The notes beneath the pieces were generated by a model. The model ran no database searches and was not told where the DNA came from. It was given only the letters and a program-made list of their open reading frames with translations. Below, in pieces: positions 6,700 to 45,239 of a stretch of 64,000 nucleotides of DNA (its first letter is position 1; each line of letters begins with the position of its first letter). A program made the position numbers and the translations under genes. Source of the stretch: a virus. Location of the stretch: positions 1 to 64,000 of the IMG/VR virus record IMGVR_UViG_3300036790_000034. One strand, given 5' to 3'.

Positions 6700-6839
6700 G
6701 GGCCGCTGAGGGATTGAACCTCCGGCTCCCAGAGATTACTAGGCGTGGCTTGTTCTAGAATTGCCAGCCGTTCAATCAGTCAGGGACTCTCTGTGATGCT
6801 GGCAGGACTTGCGGTCCCGTTGCGAACCAGCGTCGGCCC
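6700..6839 (-). ncRNA. tRNA-like structured RNA of about 140 nt
   Basis: Read on the minus strand, GGGCCG (6839-6834) can pair with CGGCCC (6705-6700). Just inside the 3' arm is a T-arm-like element, GGAGG-TTCAATC-CCTCA. The body is about 65 nt longer than a tRNA and gives no convincing anticodon arm. It contains competing hairpins (GCTGG/CCAGC and TGCCAGC/GCTGGCA). It directly follows the tmRNA coding piece and could be its 3' portion, a degenerate tRNA, or a separate RNA. Confidence 0.35.
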
Positions 6840-6894
6840 GTATAGAAATTTTGTCCCCGTTCTTTGACACGGTGGGGACCAAGCCGCGTGACTA

Positions 6895-6939
6895 CTACCG
6901 ACCAGCGGCAGCAGCCATTGCACGAGGTTTAGTCGTAGC
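6895..6939 (-). other. tmRNA tag reading frame
   Basis: After AATACTT, which matches the position and shape of the conserved bases before the resume codon (TAGTC/TAGTT in known tmRNAs), the frame reads GCT ACG ACT AAA ... GGT CGG and two stop codons TAG TAG. The peptide is ATTKPRAMAAAAGR. Usual tags end in Ala-Ala (LAA, VAA, MAA); this one ends in Gly-Arg. Confidence 0.65.
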
Positions 6940-7087
6940 AAGTATTTTTTCTGATGTCTCGTTGGCGTTCCGACATCGAACGCTCTAACCTGAAAGCGAA
7001 AACACCTTTCAAGTCGGTGAGCCACAGCACCCCGACACGCAAGTTGAAACGCTGACTCATCCCCGTCGAAACCATGACGCCCCCATC

Positions 7088-7203
7088 AAGCGTGCTCACT
7101 CCACGAGACCAGACCTTTAGAGCCGCACAATCGCGGCGGGCTGTCATACCTTGCCCACTTGCCGACGGTGGAACGTCGAGGGGCGGTCATCGTGAGCACG
7201 CTT
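7088..7203. repeat. Inverted repeat flanking the tmRNA intervening segment
   Basis: AAGCGTGCTCAC at 7088-7099 and its perfect complement GTGAGCACGCTT at 7192-7203 enclose about 92 nt. They lie 3 nt beyond the mature 5' end and at the CCA end, extending the acceptor helix in the precursor, as expected for processing of a permuted tmRNA. Confidence 0.8.
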
Positions 7204-7435
7204 GGTGGAGGCGGCGGGAATCGAACCCGCGTCCGAGAACAGCAACGCCAACCCTCAACGTGTGTAAACTTATCGAGCGTGATGCGGTGTTAGGACTCCC
7301 TCGCCCTGCCGTCGCAGTATAGTGGGTGTTGATTCACCGTACCAGTATCCGCACTACTCATCGCACGCTCAATCTTTATCCCGGTCTCGGGCCAAAGCCT
7401 TGTCCGCTGGCAAGCCAGCCACTCGCTACCCATCC

Positions 7436-7756
7436 CTATTTAGCGACCGGAATCTTCAGAACTGAATTCTCTTCCGTGGTCTCGATGCGGTGACAATTCG
7501 CACACAGCACGTCGCACTTCTTGACCTCGGATTTTATTTTCGAGAGTGCCCATCCCGCAGTAGCGGCTCGGAGCACTCCGAACAATTTCGTCTTACGATT
7601 TCGATGAGCAAAGTCCAAAGCCGCTGGGTGCTCTTTGTAGCCGCATCGTCTACAGCCCCGTTTTAGGCGATAGGAATCCAGCCATGCTTTGGTCTTCGCA
7701 ACTCGTCGTGCTCGACAAGCCTTCCAACTTGCATAAACGTGAGACGGCTTGCCCAT
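7436..7756 (-). CDS. HNH endonuclease (CDVLCANCHR type)
   Basis: The 106-residue product has CRRCGYKEHPAALDFAHRNRK, a helical spacer and KCDVLCANCHRIE. This is the HNH layout with CxxC, a central H and CxxCH, shared with the genes at 58034 and 58587. It sits immediately upstream of the tmRNA acceptor piece, in the same direction. The ribosome site before 7756 is weak; the upstream stop is 4 nt before the ATG, so coupling to the preceding membrane-anchored gene is likely. Confidence 0.85.
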   Translation of the reverse strand: MGKPSHVYASWKACRARRVAKTKAWLDSYRLKRGCRRCGYKEHPAALDFAHRNRKTKLFGVLRAATAGWALSKIKSEVKKCDVLCANCHRIETTEENSVLKIPVAK

Positions 7757-7760
7757 TGTT

Positions 7761-8000
7761 TTACAGCTTTTTCGCGAGGTCTTCGACAGCAGTGTGCAGG
7801 TCTTCGACGACTTCGGTATGAGCATCGACAGCAGCCTTCACCGCATCCGTCTTCACCTTCACCGCTTCCAAATTCGCGGTCGCAGACAGGGTGTTGGCTT
7901 CCTTCCCCGCCTTGTTAAACAGTTTTCCAATCTGACCACGGAAGCCGTAGCCAAGAGCCACGCCTGCGAGAATCAGAATTGCATAAACCAGAATATCCAT
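7761..8000 (-). CDS. Membrane-anchored helical protein, 79 residues
   Basis: Start at 8000 follows GGAGGAAAC. Residues 3-20 are a hydrophobic anchor (VYAILILAGVALGYGF), the remainder an amphipathic Ala/Val/Lys/Asp helix that may form a coiled coil. The build resembles small phage lysis or membrane-associated accessory proteins, but no motif identifies it. Driven by the promoter at 8038-8067. Confidence 0.6.
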   Translation of the reverse strand: MDILVYAILILAGVALGYGFRGQIGKLFNKAGKEANTLSATANLEAVKVKTDAVKAAVDAHTEVVEDLHTAVEDLAKKL

Positions 8001-8251: not shown

Positions 8252-10351
8252 CTACTTTCGATAGTACGCACAATCGTATCCTTCAGCCGCGAGAACGAAG
8301 CCCATGCCCTCTGCCCAATCAGGCGTTCGTGTCATCGCGTGCTCCATGTCCTTGTAAGTTAGCTTCGATGTCAGAGGCGATTCCCCGACAACTTCATCGT
8401 GAATCGTCATGATGATGATGAAGCCAATCTTCTCAGCCTCTAACATTCCGTTCAGCAGAATGTCGCGGGCCACAGCTTGAACAACATTCTCACAGATGAG
8501 ACCGCCGTAGAGCCTGTTCTCTTGCAGACCTTTCGCGTCCCATTTGTCAAACAGAACGTTCTCTTGCATCGCACCCCAACTGGTCTCGCTCATCTCGACG
8601 CGAGGATTGAGGTAGTGAAGTGCTCTGCCACTCGGCAACTTAATCTTGAGCATCTTCGGATTGCGACCATCGACCACGACGCCGCTGACGTAAATCGCTA
8701 CGCCGCCCTTCGTCGCTTTGATGACCGCAGCGTTCAATGCTTTCCAGTACGCCGGAATCTCACTGTACTTTTCACGGAATGCAGTGACGTAAGTCTTCGC
8801 TGTTTTCTCATCGAGTGTGACGCCGAACGTCGCAGCGTATTCGATGAACTTCTCCCAGCCCATTCCGAATCCGCAGCCGAGGATGATGACCTTGCCGTTC
8901 GCACGCTCTGCCGACGTGATTGTGTCGTAGGGTTTGTTCAACAGGAAGGACATGATGTCCTTATACAAGTCGAGACCCTTCGCGTACGCGTTAATCATCG
9001 TCTGGCAACCTGCAAGAGCCGCCAGCACACGAGATTCGATTTGAGCCAAGTCACTGACGCTGAGTTTATTTCCCGGCGTAGCAGAGAACGAGGCTCGGAT
9101 TGTTCCTGCGACCGCAGCCATCAGAGTCATTGACTTGATTGGCTTGCGTTCTTTCTTTGGGTCTGTGTTCGTCGCGTTGAACGCCAAACATTCCGTGTTG
9201 TACTCTGTCACCAACCCCGCGACATCGAGCGTGTTGTTTCGGATTGCGTTGACAATTCGCTCACGCAGAGTGCCGACATCTTTGCTCGGCTTGAAAAGGT
9301 TCTGAAGCTGAACTCCTCGTCCGCTCCATCGTCCAGTATGAGCACCGTGGTAGACGAACTGGTCACGCAGCCGACCATCCGCTCCGATGCGGTCCTCAAT
9401 CGTTTGAAGTTTCGTGTAAGCCGACCCGCCGAGTTTTTCTTTCAACTGGAGAACCTGATATGCGACAGGGTCCATCTTCCAGTGAATGAGTCCGACTTTC
9501 AATGCCTCCGCGATGTGAGCCTTGTCGAGCGAGTCGAACTTGTAGCCCTTCGATTGCAGCCACTCGTCTAGCTTACTTAGGCTCTTACCAGACTTCGTGT
9601 ACGCGAGGCCCGTCAACGTCTGCATCGTGACGTTGATTTCTTTAATCTCACCGAGAGCGTATGCCTTCGCATTCTGGACAAAGATTTTATCAATCCACAC
9701 GCCCTGCTCGTTCATCCTCTGGTCGAGAAGCCATGCTTGCGTCTCGCCTTCAGTGATGGGACAGTTCATTGCGACAGCGGCGTACCACACACCCCGCTCC
9801 GCACGAACGTCCTGTAAGCAATATTCTTTGAACGTCTCCCACGCGTCCGGGTCTGAATTCCAATCGCGGTAATAAAATTCCGCAGCACCCGGATTTTTCT
9901 TGAGAAACGTTTTGTTCCGCTTCGACGGCTCGGAGAAAATTTTCGTCGGCTTCTTCTTGCCGAGGATGACCGTCTTCTGCAACTCGATGTTGATGTTCAG
10001 TGCATCGGCTGCACGGTCCAGACCGATTGGCAGCGACATATAAGCACACAGCACACTCGGGTCGAACCACTCTTGCTGCGGGATGGCGTATCCGAGTCGG
10101 TACTGGAAAATATCCTTCTCGAAGTTGTAGTTCCAAGCCATCTTCATGACCGTGGGGTCAATGAGTCCAGCGTGGAGTTCCATCGGCATCGGCTCTCCGA
10201 GGATGGGAAGCCACAGCTTGGGTTCGTCATCATCGAACGCCCACGCCAGCATCAGGACTTCAGTCGTGTCGTCCTTCGAGTACCTGTCGAGACCAAAATC
10301 GGGAAGGTCGATGAACGACCGCGTTTCAAAATCAAGCCACAGCTTTCTCAT
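8252..10351 (-). CDS. Family-A DNA polymerase with 3'-5' exonuclease
   Basis: The 699-residue product has the exonuclease motifs LDFETRS (Exo I, residues 6-12), NYNFEKDIF (Exo II, near 95) and YCLQDVRAER (Exo III, near 180). The polymerase motifs follow: SDLAQIESRV (motif A), ANGKVIILGCGFGMG (motif B, O-helix) and IHDEVV (motif C). There is no 5'-3' exonuclease domain. It should be the replicative polymerase, working with the PrimPol-helicase and SSB-like protein of the same operon. The start overlaps the stop of the 80-residue gene (ATGA). The O-helix lacks the usual Tyr in the YG position (MG here), which may alter nucleotide selection. Confidence 0.93.
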   Translation of the reverse strand: MRKLWLDFETRSFIDLPDFGLDRYSKDDTTEVLMLAWAFDDDEPKLWLPILGEPMPMELHAGLIDPTVMKMAWNYNFEKDIFQYRLGYAIPQQEWFDPSVLCAYMSLPIGLDRAADALNINIELQKTVILGKKKPTKIFSEPSKRNKTFLKKNPGAAEFYYRDWNSDPDAWETFKEYCLQDVRAERGVWYAAVAMNCPITEGETQAWLLDQRMNEQGVWIDKIFVQNAKAYALGEIKEINVTMQTLTGLAYTKSGKSLSKLDEWLQSKGYKFDSLDKAHIAEALKVGLIHWKMDPVAYQVLQLKEKLGGSAYTKLQTIEDRIGADGRLRDQFVYHGAHTGRWSGRGVQLQNLFKPSKDVGTLRERIVNAIRNNTLDVAGLVTEYNTECLAFNATNTDPKKERKPIKSMTLMAAVAGTIRASFSATPGNKLSVSDLAQIESRVLAALAGCQTMINAYAKGLDLYKDIMSFLLNKPYDTITSAERANGKVIILGCGFGMGWEKFIEYAATFGVTLDEKTAKTYVTAFREKYSEIPAYWKALNAAVIKATKGGVAIYVSGVVVDGRNPKMLKIKLPSGRALHYLNPRVEMSETSWGAMQENVLFDKWDAKGLQENRLYGGLICENVVQAVARDILLNGMLEAEKIGFIIIMTIHDEVVGESPLTSKLTYKDMEHAMTRTPDWAEGMGFVLAAEGYDCAYYRK

Positions 10352-19133: not shown

Positions 19134-19404
19134 CTATCCGACAGTGAAAGAGTCCGACATCGACGGCTTTGCCCGCGTGTGGGACCATCGCGGCCTCAAG
19201 CTGATTATGGACGCGACTTCAAAGCGATTCGCGGTTGATTTCGCGAACGTTGTACTTCGGTCGTATATCGACGACCTTCGGGCCAAGGCTGCTCTAGCTC
19301 TCAAGGCAAAGCAGGCAGCGACGACCCCGGCACCCGCCGAGGCGTTGCCCGCCCCGGTTCCTGCCCCGGAACCTGTCAAGTCCACCATCATCCTCACGGA
19401 CTAG
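19123..19404 (+). CDS. Hypothetical protein with Pro/Ala-rich tail, 93 residues
   Basis: The N-terminal 60 residues are helical (AVDFANVVLRSYIDDLRAKA), the last 30 are Ala/Pro repeats ending STIILTD. GAGGGGAACA precedes the ATG. No domain recognised. Confidence 0.55.
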   Translation: MGVNYPTVKESDIDGFARVWDHRGLKLIMDATSKRFAVDFANVVLRSYIDDLRAKAALALKAKQAATTPAPAEALPAPVPAPEPVKSTIILTD

Positions 19405-19406
19405 TG

Positions 19407-19820
19407 ATGGAAAAGTCCTGTAGGTACTGTGGAGATTCTTACACTCCGACTCGGAGTCTGCGAGTTTACTGTTCGGAACAGTGTGGTAAGAACGCCCGCA
19501 ACAAGAAATGGCGTGATGCGAAGGATATGGGGGCATACTTTCGCGGATACCGATATGGTTTTATCCCCGGTGAATTTGAACGACGTATCAAAGACCAGAA
19601 TGGTCTGTGCTTGGCTTGTGGTCAACCTTTCGGGGACGAAACTCCCTGCGTAGACCATGACCATTCCTGCTGTGCCAAGGCCGCTCCAACGTGCGGTAAA
19701 TGTACCAGAGGGTTGCTTCACCAAACATGCAATAGGATTCTTGGTCAAGCGAAGGATGATTCTACTCTCCTAGCATCCTTGGTTTCTTATCTTCGGGAGG
19801 CACCGTGGAAGAAATCATAA
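19407..19820 (+). CDS. HNH endonuclease VII-like with N-terminal zinc finger
   Basis: The 137-residue product starts with CRYCGDSY...YCSEQCG, a two-pair zinc finger. It then has the endonuclease VII core: NGLCLACG, CVDHDHS, RGLLHQTCNRILG and a C-terminal helix. An 11-residue insertion with CCAKAAPTCGKC interrupts the space between DHDH and RGLL. The next gene starts inside its 3' end. Confidence 0.85.
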   Translation: MEKSCRYCGDSYTPTRSLRVYCSEQCGKNARNKKWRDAKDMGAYFRGYRYGFIPGEFERRIKDQNGLCLACGQPFGDETPCVDHDHSCCAKAAPTCGKCTRGLLHQTCNRILGQAKDDSTLLASLVSYLREAPWKKS

Positions 19821-20299
19821 AAGGATTGTGGCTTGGCAGCGACGAAGATGTCCCCAAGGCGAAGGAGCGAGGGTGGGCACGTTTATGTGCCTGCAAAGAC
19901 GGGATTGATTCGCATCGTTCGATGCTTGAATACGAGACTCGCGGTGCTCCTGACGGAAAAGATTATTACTTCGCCCGCAAAGGCGATGTGCTGGCACTCA
20001 ATTTGATTGACAGCGAAGACCCTGAGATGATTCCTGATAAGGTCATCGACGCGGGCCTGAAGTTCATCAAGGAGATGCAGGACAAACACCGCATCCTTCT
20101 TGTTCACTGCAACGCGGGTCACTCGCGGTCTCCGATTATCACGCTGATGTATCTTCATGCAGTCGGAGAGTTACCGCAGAATTACATCACCGCGTCTAAG
20201 CGGTTCAAGTACCTGTACGATAAGTTCGACCCCGGCGTCGGCATGGAAAGTCACGCAAGGGAAAGATGGAAAGCGTTGCCACAATTTTTCAACAAATAG
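19805..20299 (+). CDS. Dual-specificity / tyrosine phosphatase-like protein
   Basis: The 164-residue product has the Cys-phosphatase signature HCNAGHSRS (HCx5R, near residue 100) preceded by ILLV and followed by a helix, and a general-acid Asp candidate in NLIDSEDPEM. This is the compact dual-specificity fold. The GTG start follows GGGAGGCACC and lies inside the HNH gene. It could dephosphorylate host or phage proteins, or a phosphorylated sugar or nucleotide. Confidence 0.82.
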   Translation: MEEIIKGLWLGSDEDVPKAKERGWARLCACKDGIDSHRSMLEYETRGAPDGKDYYFARKGDVLALNLIDSEDPEMIPDKVIDAGLKFIKEMQDKHRILLVHCNAGHSRSPIITLMYLHAVGELPQNYITASKRFKYLYDKFDPGVGMESHARERWKALPQFFNK

Positions 20300-20344
20300 A
20301 CGGCTTAATTACCCGTCTAGGGCGGTTGCTGATACCAGCCGCCC
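20298..20344 (+). ncRNA. Twin-hairpin RNA motif, copy B
   Basis: Hairpin 1 AGACGG-CTTAATTAC-CCGTCT; hairpin 2 GGGCGGTTG-CTGATAC-CAGCCGCCC with one T-G pair. It starts at the phosphatase stop codon and ends 9 nt before the ribosome site of an HNH gene. Confidence 0.7.
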
Positions 20345-20365
20345 ATTCTTGTATCAGGAGAAAAC

Positions 20366-20728
20366 ATGAACAAAACAAAGTACGACAAACAGTATTACCT
20401 CGACCACAGAGAAGAGTTTCTTGCCCGGGCTTCAGTGTCTTATGCTTCGCCTGAAGGCAAGCGTCGAAATCTAGCCAATCGCCTTCGACGAGAGTTTGAT
20501 ATGACTCTCGAAGAATACGAAAGGAAAGATACAGAGCAAGCGGGGCTTTGTAAGATTTGTGGACACTCGCAGCATGGTGGTAAGCGGTTAGCCGTTGACC
20601 ATGACCACGATACGAAGGAAAATCGAGATTTACTTTGCGACCTCTGCAATCGTGCATTGGGGTTGTTCAAAGACAACCTTGATACACTTCGTAATGCTGT
20701 CGCGTATCTAGAAAAGTGGAAGAAATAA
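20366..20728 (+). CDS. HNH endonuclease VII-like, 120 residues
   Basis: A basic N-terminus is followed by GLCKICG, LAVDHDHDTKE, RDLLCDLCNRALG and a helix DNLDTLRNAVAYLEKW. This is the full endonuclease VII-type core used by homing genes of this phage. Start has AGGAGAAAAC. The gene after it begins one base beyond the stop, so it is neatly spliced into the operon. Confidence 0.9.
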   Translation: MNKTKYDKQYYLDHREEFLARASVSYASPEGKRRNLANRLRREFDMTLEEYERKDTEQAGLCKICGHSQHGGKRLAVDHDHDTKENRDLLCDLCNRALGLFKDNLDTLRNAVAYLEKWKK

Positions 20729-29217: not shown

Positions 29218-29634
29218 ATGGCGTACAAAGATTTAGAAAATCGGCGTGCTGCGGGTCGTAAAGCCTCGCAACGATTCCGCGATATCCACGGTGCGGAATC
29301 AAAGAAGTACCAACGTGAGTGGGCAAGGAATCTGAGTCCCGAGAAAAAGAAACTCCGGGCGAAGAAGGGTAATCGTCGTCGATATGGTTTGACGATTGAA
29401 AAGTATGATGCGAAGTTGGCATCCCAAAATAATTTGTGTGCGTTGTGCCACAAGCCCTTCAATTCAAAAATCGAACGAGAGCGTCCCGTTTTAGACCATA
29501 ATCATCGGACGAAAGTTTTACGAGATTTTATCCATAGCCAGTGTAATATCGGCATCGGAAATCTATTGGATGATGCTGCGATTTGTCGTCTCGCGGCGGA
29601 ATATTTAGAACGACACAAACAGGAGGAAGCATGA
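29218..29634 (+). CDS. HNH endonuclease VII-like, 138 residues
   Basis: A long basic helix is followed by NLCALCHKPF, VLDHNHRTK, RDFIHSQCNIGIG and the terminal helix. RGLLC of the family is degenerate here (RDFIHSQ), although CN is kept. CTAGGAGATGAG precedes the ATG. ATGA overlap with the next virion gene. Confidence 0.85.
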   Translation: MAYKDLENRRAAGRKASQRFRDIHGAESKKYQREWARNLSPEKKKLRAKKGNRRRYGLTIEKYDAKLASQNNLCALCHKPFNSKIERERPVLDHNHRTKVLRDFIHSQCNIGIGNLLDDAAICRLAAEYLERHKQEEA

Positions 29635-32596: not shown

Positions 32597-32983
32597 ATGA
32601 AACGTAAGACGTATTGTGTGCGAGGGCATCTTCGCACACCTGAAAATCTCATTCGCAACAATTGTAAGTTGTGTATGAAACAGTGGAACGTAGAACACCC
32701 GGAAGAACGCAAGAAAATCGCTCGTGAATATTCCCGACGATACAGAATGCGGAAACTTTACAACCTGACTGAAGAACAATATCAAGAATTGTTCCAGAAA
32801 CAAAGAGGGTTGTGTGTTCTCCCATCCTGCGGTGAACCCGCTACGGATATCGACCACTGTCACGTCCGCAGCAAGACGCGTGGGTTGATGTGCAATCGGC
32901 ACAACCTCGCCCTTGGATTATTCGGTAACAGCCCGATTCTGCTTCGTGAAGCCGCTGTATATCTGGAGACTTTCAATGGGTAA
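32597..32983 (+). CDS. HNH endonuclease VII-like, 128 residues
   Basis: An N-terminal CVRGH...CKLC zinc pair is followed by GLCVLPSCGEPATDIDHCHVRSK, RGLMCNRHNLALG and the closing helix. The core has DHCH in place of DHDH and RH in place of CN's Cys, which are family variants. CTAGGAGAGAAC precedes the ATG; the next gene starts within its last codons (ATGGGTAA). Confidence 0.87.
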   Translation: MKRKTYCVRGHLRTPENLIRNNCKLCMKQWNVEHPEERKKIAREYSRRYRMRKLYNLTEEQYQELFQKQRGLCVLPSCGEPATDIDHCHVRSKTRGLMCNRHNLALGLFGNSPILLREAAVYLETFNG

Positions 32984-34143: not shown

Positions 34144-34581
34144 ATGCCTTCAGAAGTAACACAATTCAAATCGGGTTCGGCTCACCATTTTGGTCAAAGG
34201 GACCGCTGTTCTAGTGGTCATCTATACCTTGAGGGTTCGTTCAAAATTGTTGATAAGGACGGGTACTCATACCGACATTGTCGAGTGTGTAGTCGTCTCG
34301 CGACAAAACGTGCTCATCAGATGAGGTACTACGGTATCACACAAGAACAGCGGGACGATATTTTCGTCAAGCAAGGCTCTTGTTGTGCTATCTGTAAGTC
34401 GAAGTATCACGGCGGACGAGGTTGGCATACCGACCACGACCACGTAACGAAGAAGGTGCGGGGCATTCTTTGCCATCCGTGCAATCTCGCATTGGGGAAC
34501 GTTAAGGACAATGTAGAGATTCTACAGGCACTCATCGAGTACCTGCGTGGAACAGAGGGCCGTGAACAACGGGCCACGTAA
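34144..34581 (+). CDS. HNH endonuclease VII-like, 145 residues
   Basis: An N-terminal CSSGH...CRVC pair is followed by GSCCAICKSKYHGGRGWHTDHDH, RGILCHPCNLALG and the DNVEILQALIEYL helix. TAGGAGGAACT precedes the ATG. It is nearly the same in layout as the gene at 35027, so recent duplication or repeated invasion is likely. Own promoter upstream. Confidence 0.92.
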   Translation: MPSEVTQFKSGSAHHFGQRDRCSSGHLYLEGSFKIVDKDGYSYRHCRVCSRLATKRAHQMRYYGITQEQRDDIFVKQGSCCAICKSKYHGGRGWHTDHDHVTKKVRGILCHPCNLALGNVKDNVEILQALIEYLRGTEGREQRAT

Positions 34582-34605
34582 TATGGATGCTCTGTCGGAT
34601 AAGCC

Positions 34606-35022
34606 ATGTTGAATTTCTTTCGTAAAACCGCCCTATGGATTGTCGCTATCCCGATGCTTTGTTTTTTCCTCGGTGCCGCGTCGAATCAAGCCGTCCTTGT
34701 TGCTAATCATGACAAATTTCCCGTCATGTGGAATGACGCCAAGGTCAACCTCTACCGACTCGAAGCGACCAAAGCCGCCGAAGCTGGAAATGAAGATGCC
34801 GAAATTGCTCTCGCCCTCTTGGAGCATGGCTACCTCGACGATACACATTGTTTGATGACAAAAGAGACGCATCTCAATTTTCTCGCAGACTGGATTGACT
34901 TGAAGTCCGCGACATACAGCCTCGGAGACCTCCTACTTGAATTAGGTGAGCGAGGAATGGGATACTCCTCGGTCGCATGGGTGGTTGTTGTCCTCGGAGG
35001 ACTCCGCAAGAAAGAAGAATAA
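34606..35022 (+). CDS. Membrane protein, 138 residues
   Basis: Residues 8-30 are a hydrophobic segment (LWIVAIPMLCFFLGAASN), followed by QAVLVANHDKFPVMWN, a small acidic helical domain, and a second hydrophobic helix near the C-terminus (SSVAWVVVVLGGL). It lies between two HNH genes. Function unknown. Confidence 0.6.
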   Translation: MLNFFRKTALWIVAIPMLCFFLGAASNQAVLVANHDKFPVMWNDAKVNLYRLEATKAAEAGNEDAEIALALLEHGYLDDTHCLMTKETHLNFLADWIDLKSATYSLGDLLLELGERGMGYSSVAWVVVVLGGLRKKEE

Positions 35023-35026
35023 AGAC

Positions 35027-35404
35027 ATGGCATTGGCAACTTGTAGAAACGGACATTATCGTACTTCCTCGAATTCCAGAACCCGCTCGAATGGTGATGT
35101 TCGTTGTCTACAATGCGAACGTGAGAACAAACGTTTTCATAGATACGGCTTATCCGGCAAAGAATGGGAGGAGTTGTTTGATTCGCAAGGTCGATGTTGT
35201 GCTGTTTGTAAACGCACAGAAACTAAGGGTTGGGATTGGCATACCGACCACAGTCATACAACCAGCATAGTTCGTGGCATCTTGTGTGATGGATGTAATC
35301 GTGCTCTTGGAGCCGTCGATGATAATATCGACATTCTGCTGGCTCTTGTTGAATATCTTAAACGGAGTTCTTATGGCGTTGGCAACGTATACGATTGCAA
35401 ATAG
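35027..35404 (+). CDS. HNH endonuclease VII-like, 125 residues
   Basis: CRNGH...CLQC pair, then GRCCAVCKRTETKGWDWHTDHSH, RGILCDGCNRALG and the closing helix DDNIDILLALVEYL. The ATG lies 4 nt after the upstream stop with a weak ribosome site, so it is probably coupled. The next virion gene starts 32 nt before its end. Confidence 0.9.
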   Translation: MALATCRNGHYRTSSNSRTRSNGDVRCLQCERENKRFHRYGLSGKEWEELFDSQGRCCAVCKRTETKGWDWHTDHSHTTSIVRGILCDGCNRALGAVDDNIDILLALVEYLKRSSYGVGNVYDCK

Positions 35405-42157: not shown

Positions 42158-42186
42158 TTGACTTTCTTGTCGCAACATGAGATACT
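42158..42186 (+). promoter_or_regulatory. Promoter before HNH cassette
   Basis: TTGACT, 17 nt, GATACT with TGA just before the -10. It lies between the large tail gene and an HNH gene and follows the 19-nt repeat also found at 34042. Confidence 0.5.
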
Positions 42187-42202
42187 GGCGATGGGAGAAG
42201 AT

Positions 42203-42820
42203 ATGGAGAAAAGATACAAACTTGAAGGTCATGAACAAGACGTTGTTGATGCGTATCAGAGTGGACAACCGACCACTCTGATAGCTCGAACATTCGGGGT
42301 GTCTGCGACCTCAGTTAATCAACTGCTAAGAAAACTCGGGGTGCCTCGTCGTGATATGAAGACGAGTCACCCTCAAAAATCGCACTGTCGGTATGGGCAC
42401 CCCCTATTCGGGGATAACCTCTATACGACGCAACGTGGGACTCGGGGATGTCGAGCATGTCGTAAGGCGTGGTTCGAGAAACATACACAGACGGAAGAAC
42501 AGAAAAATCGTAGTCGTGATTGGGGGCGACGAAAGCGAGAGAGCGACCCCGAATATCAGCGTAATGCGGATTTGTGGTCTTACTATCGTTTACGTCGGCC
42601 TGAGTACGACCAGAAACTTCAGATTCAAAAACATCAATGTGCCGTGTGTAAGCAGTTGATGGAAAAACCTTGCGTTGACCACGACCACACTACGTTTCAA
42701 GTGCGAGATTTAGTTTGTCGAAATTGTAATCTCGCTATCGGCCACGTAAGGGAAAGTCTCGAAATCGCAGAGGCTCTCGTCGCTTACCTCAAGAAATGGA
42801 GCACTCATGCCGCCTCTTAG
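42203..42820 (+). CDS. HNH endonuclease VII-like with N-terminal HTH, 205 residues
   Basis: The N-terminal 50 residues hold a helix-turn-helix (TTLIARTFGVSATSVNQLLR), then CRYGH...CRACRK, then the core CAVCKQLMEKPCVDHDHTT, RDLVCRNCNLAIG and a final helix. The HTH should add DNA-binding specificity. Start at 42203 follows GGGAGAAGAT. It is the longest HNH protein here. The next gene overlaps its end by 14 nt. Confidence 0.88.
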   Translation: MEKRYKLEGHEQDVVDAYQSGQPTTLIARTFGVSATSVNQLLRKLGVPRRDMKTSHPQKSHCRYGHPLFGDNLYTTQRGTRGCRACRKAWFEKHTQTEEQKNRSRDWGRRKRESDPEYQRNADLWSYYRLRRPEYDQKLQIQKHQCAVCKQLMEKPCVDHDHTTFQVRDLVCRNCNLAIGHVRESLEIAEALVAYLKKWSTHAAS

Positions 42821-44825: not shown

Positions 44826-45239
44826 GTGAAGAAATCGAAATGTAGCCGAGGGCATCTCCTAACAAAAGACAACCTCATCATTAACCGAAAAGGTCGCCAA
44901 TGTAAGAAATGTCATCGAGTTACTCAGCAGAGGTATCGTAAAACCCAGCAAGGTGTTTGGACTTCTAAATCGCGAGAAATCCGGGATTCTGGGTGGACAT
45001 TAGAAAGATACCAAGACTTTTTGCGTGTCCAAGATAATGCTTGTGCTATCTGCAAAACTCCGTTTGAGCAATTTACAAGAAATCCTTCTTGCGACCACGA
45101 CCACGCGTGCATGACCCCGCGAGGGTTGTTGTGTGATGCTTGCAATCTGGGAATCGGAAAGTTCAAAGAGAACCCTCTGCTCTTAGAACTTGCGGCTCAA
45201 TATTTGAAGAAGTGGAAGGTATACGATGTGCGGACCTAG
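44826..45239 (+). CDS. HNH endonuclease VII-like, 137 residues
   Basis: GTG start. CSRGH...CKKC pair, then NACAICKTPFEQ...SCDHDHACM, RGLLCDACNLGIG and the closing helix. It is inserted before the Hint-domain gene, whose start lies 14 nt upstream of its end. Confidence 0.9.
   Translation: MKKSKCSRGHLLTKDNLIINRKGRQCKKCHRVTQQRYRKTQQGVWTSKSREIRDSGWTLERYQDFLRVQDNACAICKTPFEQFTRNPSCDHDHACMTPRGLLCDACNLGIGKFKENPLLLELAAQYLKKWKVYDVRT

Follow-up and report, generated by a model that had tools for sequence, protein, structure and literature searches.

Sequence analysis confirmed that positions 7295–6850 (minus strand) of the window, the 64,000-nucleotide stretch of IMG/VR virus record IMGVR_UViG_3300036790_000034 analyzed here, form a circularly permuted tmRNA (ssrA) gene. 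We consider it highly probable (roughly 0.87) that this is a complete permuted ssrA of alpha-type architecture, inherited vertically, which would supply a two-piece ribosome-rescue tmRNA to a tailed phage of approximately 97 kb. Judged from the sequences compared, what is new about this tmRNA is the recurring Gly-Arg end of its tag; its retention downstream of the DNA polymerase gene in a clade related to Tunturiibacter phage Tunturi_3 is likewise newly recognized.

The permuted gene and the clade that carries it

ARAGORN called a permuted tmRNA at 6804–7295 (minus strand) with the tag ATTKPRAMAAAAGR followed by two stop codons, and the Rfam covariance model RF04321 (tmRNA_permuted) matched 7239–7060 (minus strand) with 62.0 bits (E = 1.4e-9; gathering cut-off, 47 bits). 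Two independent finders therefore agreed, bearing out the earlier sequence-only reading, which had proposed such a gene in a virus and a check against permuted Rfam models; the source record is a 97,491-bp virus. With the alpha_tmRNA model RF01849, the window scored below the cut-off (50), and the relatives L191 and L192 scored 72.8 and 51.7 bits. The standard one-piece model RF00023 matched each half of the gene only separately and below its cut-off.

The 3' tRNA-like half precedes the 5' half in the gene, with an intervening segment between them. The acceptor (3') piece (7203–7295, minus strand, by ARAGORN) comprises the T-arm GCGGG-TTCGATT-CCCGC, the acceptor 3' strand CGCCTCC, A, and an encoded CCA ending at 7203; conservation begins at approximately 7266, and its 5' boundary at 7295 is tentative. 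A 118-nt intervening segment (7085–7202, minus strand), closed by a helix and then carrying a GAT leader, is expected from its sequence to be removed on maturation. The coding (5') piece (6850–7084, minus strand; ARAGORN and sequence, exact 3' end inferred) contains the acceptor 5' strand GGGGGCG from 7084, the D-loop motif TGGTTTCGACGGGG, the tag frame, and a 3' hairpin, GTCCCC (6879–6874)/GGGGAC (6858–6853). The earlier reading had placed the CCA end, GGGGGCG, and the motif after it correctly. Its overall extent of 6850–7385 roughly suits the gene, in which the hairpin of the coding piece ends at approximately 6853 and conservation of the acceptor piece begins at approximately 7266.

The acceptor stem, previously described as perfect, consists of six Watson-Crick pairs and one G3.U70 wobble, the alanine identity pair of AlaRS. 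This wobble was invariant in 17/17 tmRNAs (clade members plus Tunturi phages), across which stem positions 4, 5, and 6 covaried with compensation. The perfect 12-bp inverted repeat reported at the intervening segment (AAGCGTGCTCAC/GTGAGCACGCTT) proved real, and the closing helix of the segment is perfect (AGCGTGCTCAC/GTGAGCACGCT); a helix of at least 11 between the two ends of the 118-nt segment arose in 3/200,000 shuffles when solely bases 3' of CCA were counted. Such a helix was present in 13 of 14 distinct ARAGORN calls from the clade and Tunturi_4, built from 13 different arm pairs in the clade, and in 32/65 other permuted calls. The helix is thus ordinary for genes of this type: the alpha-like permuted tmRNAs of other phages commonly have a terminal helix and a TGAT leader, whereas cyanophage-like permuted tmRNAs have an intervening segment of just 4–6 nt. 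The full CCA is not encoded in four relatives (G012, G024, G036, and G045).

The clade set consisted of TerL relatives from viral contigs, whose records were searched with RF04321. A permuted tmRNA was found in 14 of the 15 TerL-relative contigs of at least 47 kb, the exception being a 58-kb contig that terminates right past DNA polymerase; short fragments mostly lacked the tmRNA region. In the window, an HNH endonuclease gene (7436–7825, minus strand; PHROG 3106, E = 1.3e-24) lies directly upstream of the tmRNA, and the clade-conserved upstream neighbor is the DNA polymerase gene (8252–10351, minus strand; PHROG 17, E = 3e-97). The window, L390, L391, L392, L394, L395, L397, L176, L187, L407, and Tunturi_3 all have the tmRNA on the strand of the DNA polymerase gene and downstream of it. 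By this sequence comparison, the permuted tmRNA is a vertically inherited feature of an approximately 97-kb phage clade related to Tunturi_3. Unannotated permuted tmRNAs were also located in the GenBank records of Tunturi_3 (L198:38396–38172, minus strand) and Tunturi_4 (L003:2937–3471; 33-aa tag, adjoining an RF-1 domain gene). Stenotrophomonas phage DLP6 (L002:2947–3290) has one too.

Genes of the record include DNA polymerase, primase-helicase, terminase, portal/connector, and major head protein. By TerL, the nearest cultured phage is Tunturi_3 (97,608 bp, 45% identity), with which the record shares gene order, a portal 62% identical, and a major head (capsid) protein 82% identical. A podovirus that infects an Acidobacteriota strain, Tunturi_3 was described in a paper whose main text makes no mention of a tmRNA (PMC11924767). 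Since this nearest cultured relative infects Acidobacteriota, the window phage probably also has an Acidobacteriota host. The sequence-only reading had taken the permuted form as a hint at host lineage; this was misleading, as the form is alpha-type, yet Acidobacteriota are absent from the three main permuted-tmRNA clades named in PMC11915505. A prophage search for the host gave a sole genome match, a contig in a Bacteroidetes MAG that is probably a misbinned phage and was therefore left out of the host assignment.

The record has one 127-bp sequence at each end and a further copy in its interior (1–127, 80445–80571, and 97365–97491), which may reflect k-mer overlap in the assembly of a repeat; the record is likely near-complete, with circularity only a possibility. 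About a dozen ORFs, in the window (19404–20728, 29218–29634, 32597–32983, 34144–35404, 42158–42820, and 44826–45239) and in the record beyond 64 kb, match one endonuclease VII gene of Tunturi_3. The sequence suggests that many homing-type endonucleases are scattered through the genome.

From the gene form, identity pair, tag frame, and conservation, we infer that the tmRNA is expressed, processed, charged, and used with host SmpB in ribosome rescue. As the transcript folds, the intervening helix would keep both acceptor strands together; cleavage by RNase P before G7084 and by 3'-end nucleases after CCA at 7203 would yield a two-piece tmRNA. Charged by host AlaRS through G3.U70, this RNA would be brought by host SmpB to stalled ribosomes during infection, and rescued peptides would gain Ala plus ATTKPRAMAAAAGR. 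The phage may also control tagging in its host, as the sequence-only reading proposed. Neither SmpB nor an RF-1 domain rescue factor was found in the phage record; Tunturi_3 and Tunturi_4 each encode an RF-1 domain gene.

Two other accounts of the gene were weighed. It could be a non-functional piece of host ssrA, left behind at an attachment site or when a prophage excised imprecisely, given that ssrA is often a prophage integration site (discussed in PMC9004378) and that an annotated integrase gene is common to Tunturi_3 and the window phage genome. However, the integrase homologue lies far off, at 84.8–85.3 kb, relatives have the gene at the same place beside DNA polymerase, and both pieces, the tag frame, and the intervening helix remain intact and show covariation throughout a deep clade; covariation and synteny thus largely refute this origin, which we regard as very improbable. 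It is unlikely, if less so, that the RNA serves as a decoy or inhibitory tmRNA that competes for SmpB and AlaRS and dampens host rescue, with the tag secondary. A tag-less phage tmRNA (DS6A) is reported in PMC11915505 to inhibit host tmRNA in E. coli, and the lack of a detected SmpB gene in the record would fit such a role, but a pure decoy would have no use for the tag frame, the resume context, or the stop codons, all of which the relatives keep.

The tag and its Gly-Arg end

The tag frame (6892–6939, minus strand, by ARAGORN) reads GCT ACG ACT AAA CCT CGT GCA ATG GCT GCT GCC GCT GGT CGG TAG TAG, with a GCT resume codon and a TAGTAG stop, and relatives have homologous frames. Instead of a canonical (L/V)AA-like degron, the tag terminates in AAAAGR, an unusual end that the sequence-only reading had passed over. 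Its final AGR was shared by seven distinct clade tags (the window and six others), with four kinds of Gly-Arg codon pair: GGT CGG (four tags), GGA CGC, GGA AGG, and GGG CGC.

The clade tags were as follows: the window (ATTKPRAMAAAAGR), G031 (AETEKPRAFAAAAGR), G026 (AETKPLAMAAAAGR), G012 (ATPKRAFAAAAGR), G004 (AKTNTLAMGAAAGR), G036/G038 (ATTEKPKAFAATAGR), and G045 (ATKPLTFAAAAGR); G024 (ATTEKPKAMSATAGM) and G044 (ANTNVKAMSASAGA); and G034 (ATTEKPKAFAAAA), G021 (AETKPLAFAAAA), G008 (ATPKAKAFAAAA), and G006 (AKTNVKAFAAHA). Long tags ended in LVMA in G013/G019 and in LAA in Tunturi_3; the tags of G024, G019, and Tunturi_3 are manual readings. Besides Gly-Arg, tag ends in the clade included AAAA, AAHA, GM, and GA.

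The importance of the Gly-Arg end for the clade is uncertain, because it is not universal there. Its distribution would fit either an ancestral end with repeated loss or repeated gain, and identical Gly-Arg coding DNA in some relatives (GCTGCCGCTGGTCGGTA) means that recombination could have spread it. For E. coli ClpX, recognition of the ssrA tag depends on a C-terminal (L)AA and its carboxylate; AAAAGR should therefore be a poor degron and AAAA a working one. The Gly-Arg end would thus weaken recognition by ClpX, which predicts that rescued peptides bearing it escape ClpXP.

For the tag alone, it is a real possibility, short of probable, that Gly-Arg is a drifting neutral extension, the host degrading the peptides anyway or the degron lying upstream (AMAAAA). 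On the TerL tree the Gly-Arg end comes and goes, with at least five changes and clustering no greater than with shuffled labels, and GM and GA occupy the same place in other clade tags. Against neutrality, Gly-Arg, where present, shows synonymous differences in both codons, so that the amino acids appear to have been kept through synonymous change, and none of the 65 other permuted calls had a Gly-Arg end.

A neighboring tRNA-like RNA

A separate tRNA-like RNA (6840–6697, minus strand), not part of the tmRNA and likewise unnoticed in the sequence-only reading, was identified by BLAST and a covariance model. On sequence comparison, it is a previously undescribed, conserved, structured RNA. BLAST also found it in G004 and a 332-kb phage, and the covariance model added copies in G026, G012, G034, and a 463-kb phage. 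Beyond the window, copies lie at L390:10221–10367, L395:9744–9893, L392:10325–10479, L391:10710–10554 (minus strand), L284:6854–7032, and L430:1644–1501 (minus strand). The RNA is about 145–180 nt long overall (143 nt in the window). Shared features are a tRNA-like closing stem (GGGCCG/CGGCCC in the window), a T-arm-like hairpin with TTCRAYY (window, GGAGGTTCAATCCCTC), an ACC(A) end (ACC in the window), an inserted hairpin at the place of the D-arm, and a long branched arm at that of the anticodon. In the alignment of seven copies, both sides were changed in 21 of 35 pairs (8.6 in shuffles), and the covariation score was 0.478 against 0.171 in shuffles, with 0/500 shuffles as high; fitting the alignment to the structure favors covariation, but a one-column slide lowered the score to 0.07.

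No Rfam family, tRNA included, matched this RNA, ARAGORN called no tRNA there in default mode, and no cloverleaf of approximately 75 nt with an anticodon was recognized. An intron-containing tRNA and a known Rfam family were both unsupported as identities. A GCT...TAGTAA frame within the RNA, present in the window and G004, was rejected as a tag, other copies being without it.

Five clade members have the tRNA-like RNA next to the tmRNA: two carry it downstream of the tmRNA, and the other three between the DNA polymerase and tmRNA genes. Its copies in the two huge phages (332 and 463 kb), both of which also bear permuted tmRNAs, sit beside tRNA-Lys within tRNA arrays. Several CTA-anticodon tRNAs (Pyl by ARAGORN) occur in these huge phages (L284 7297–7583 and L430 886–1204), and the sequences suggest amber recoding there. 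Two phage groups that differ greatly thus share a conserved non-Rfam RNA that neighbors a permuted tmRNA or co-occurs with one.

A more far-reaching interpretation, which we consider doubtful, is that the clade has retuned rescue: the tmRNA would free ribosomes, the ..AGR end (AAAA in other relatives) would go unseen by host ClpXP, and the tmRNA would work with the adjacent tRNA-like RNA. The usual assumption about phage tmRNAs is that they duplicate both rescue and degradation by the host; as clade tag ends switch between the degron-like AAAA and AAAAGR, separation of rescue from proteolysis by phages is directly testable.

Comparison with known permuted tmRNAs

As a kind, the phage-borne two-piece tmRNA is not new, because two-piece tmRNAs are established in phages, with 53 among 133 unique phage tmRNA structures from 402 genomes (PMC9004378). 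A further study curated 79 phage tmRNAs (PMC11915505), and about half of the tmRNAs in the viral contigs scanned here were permuted. With the present gene, permuted tmRNA is now placed in a phage lineage that has a member infecting Acidobacteriota.

Methylophilales phage Melnitz and the pelagimyophages (PMC9004378) likewise encode an alpha-type permuted tmRNA, and in them too the RNA appears to come from a lineage other than that of the host. They are marine T4-like myophages with a glutamine riboswitch nearby, whereas the window belongs to an approximately 97-kb phage related to the soil podovirus Tunturi_3 and having AGR tags. With the permuted tmRNA of Alphaproteobacteria (RF01849; general model, RF04321), the window shares the 3' piece placed first, a long helix-ended intervening segment, a TGAT-like leader, the TTTCGAC motif, and G3.U70; it differs in that its tag lacks an LAA/VAA-type end and its score with the alpha model is below the cut-off. 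The tmRNAs of Tunturi_3 and Tunturi_4 have the same gene form as the window, and that of Tunturi_3 likewise lies downstream of DNA polymerase. Unlike the window, however, both have long tags, ending in ..TMLAA and ..YAVAA, and Tunturi_4 is a siphovirus whose tmRNA adjoins the gene of an RF-1 domain protein.
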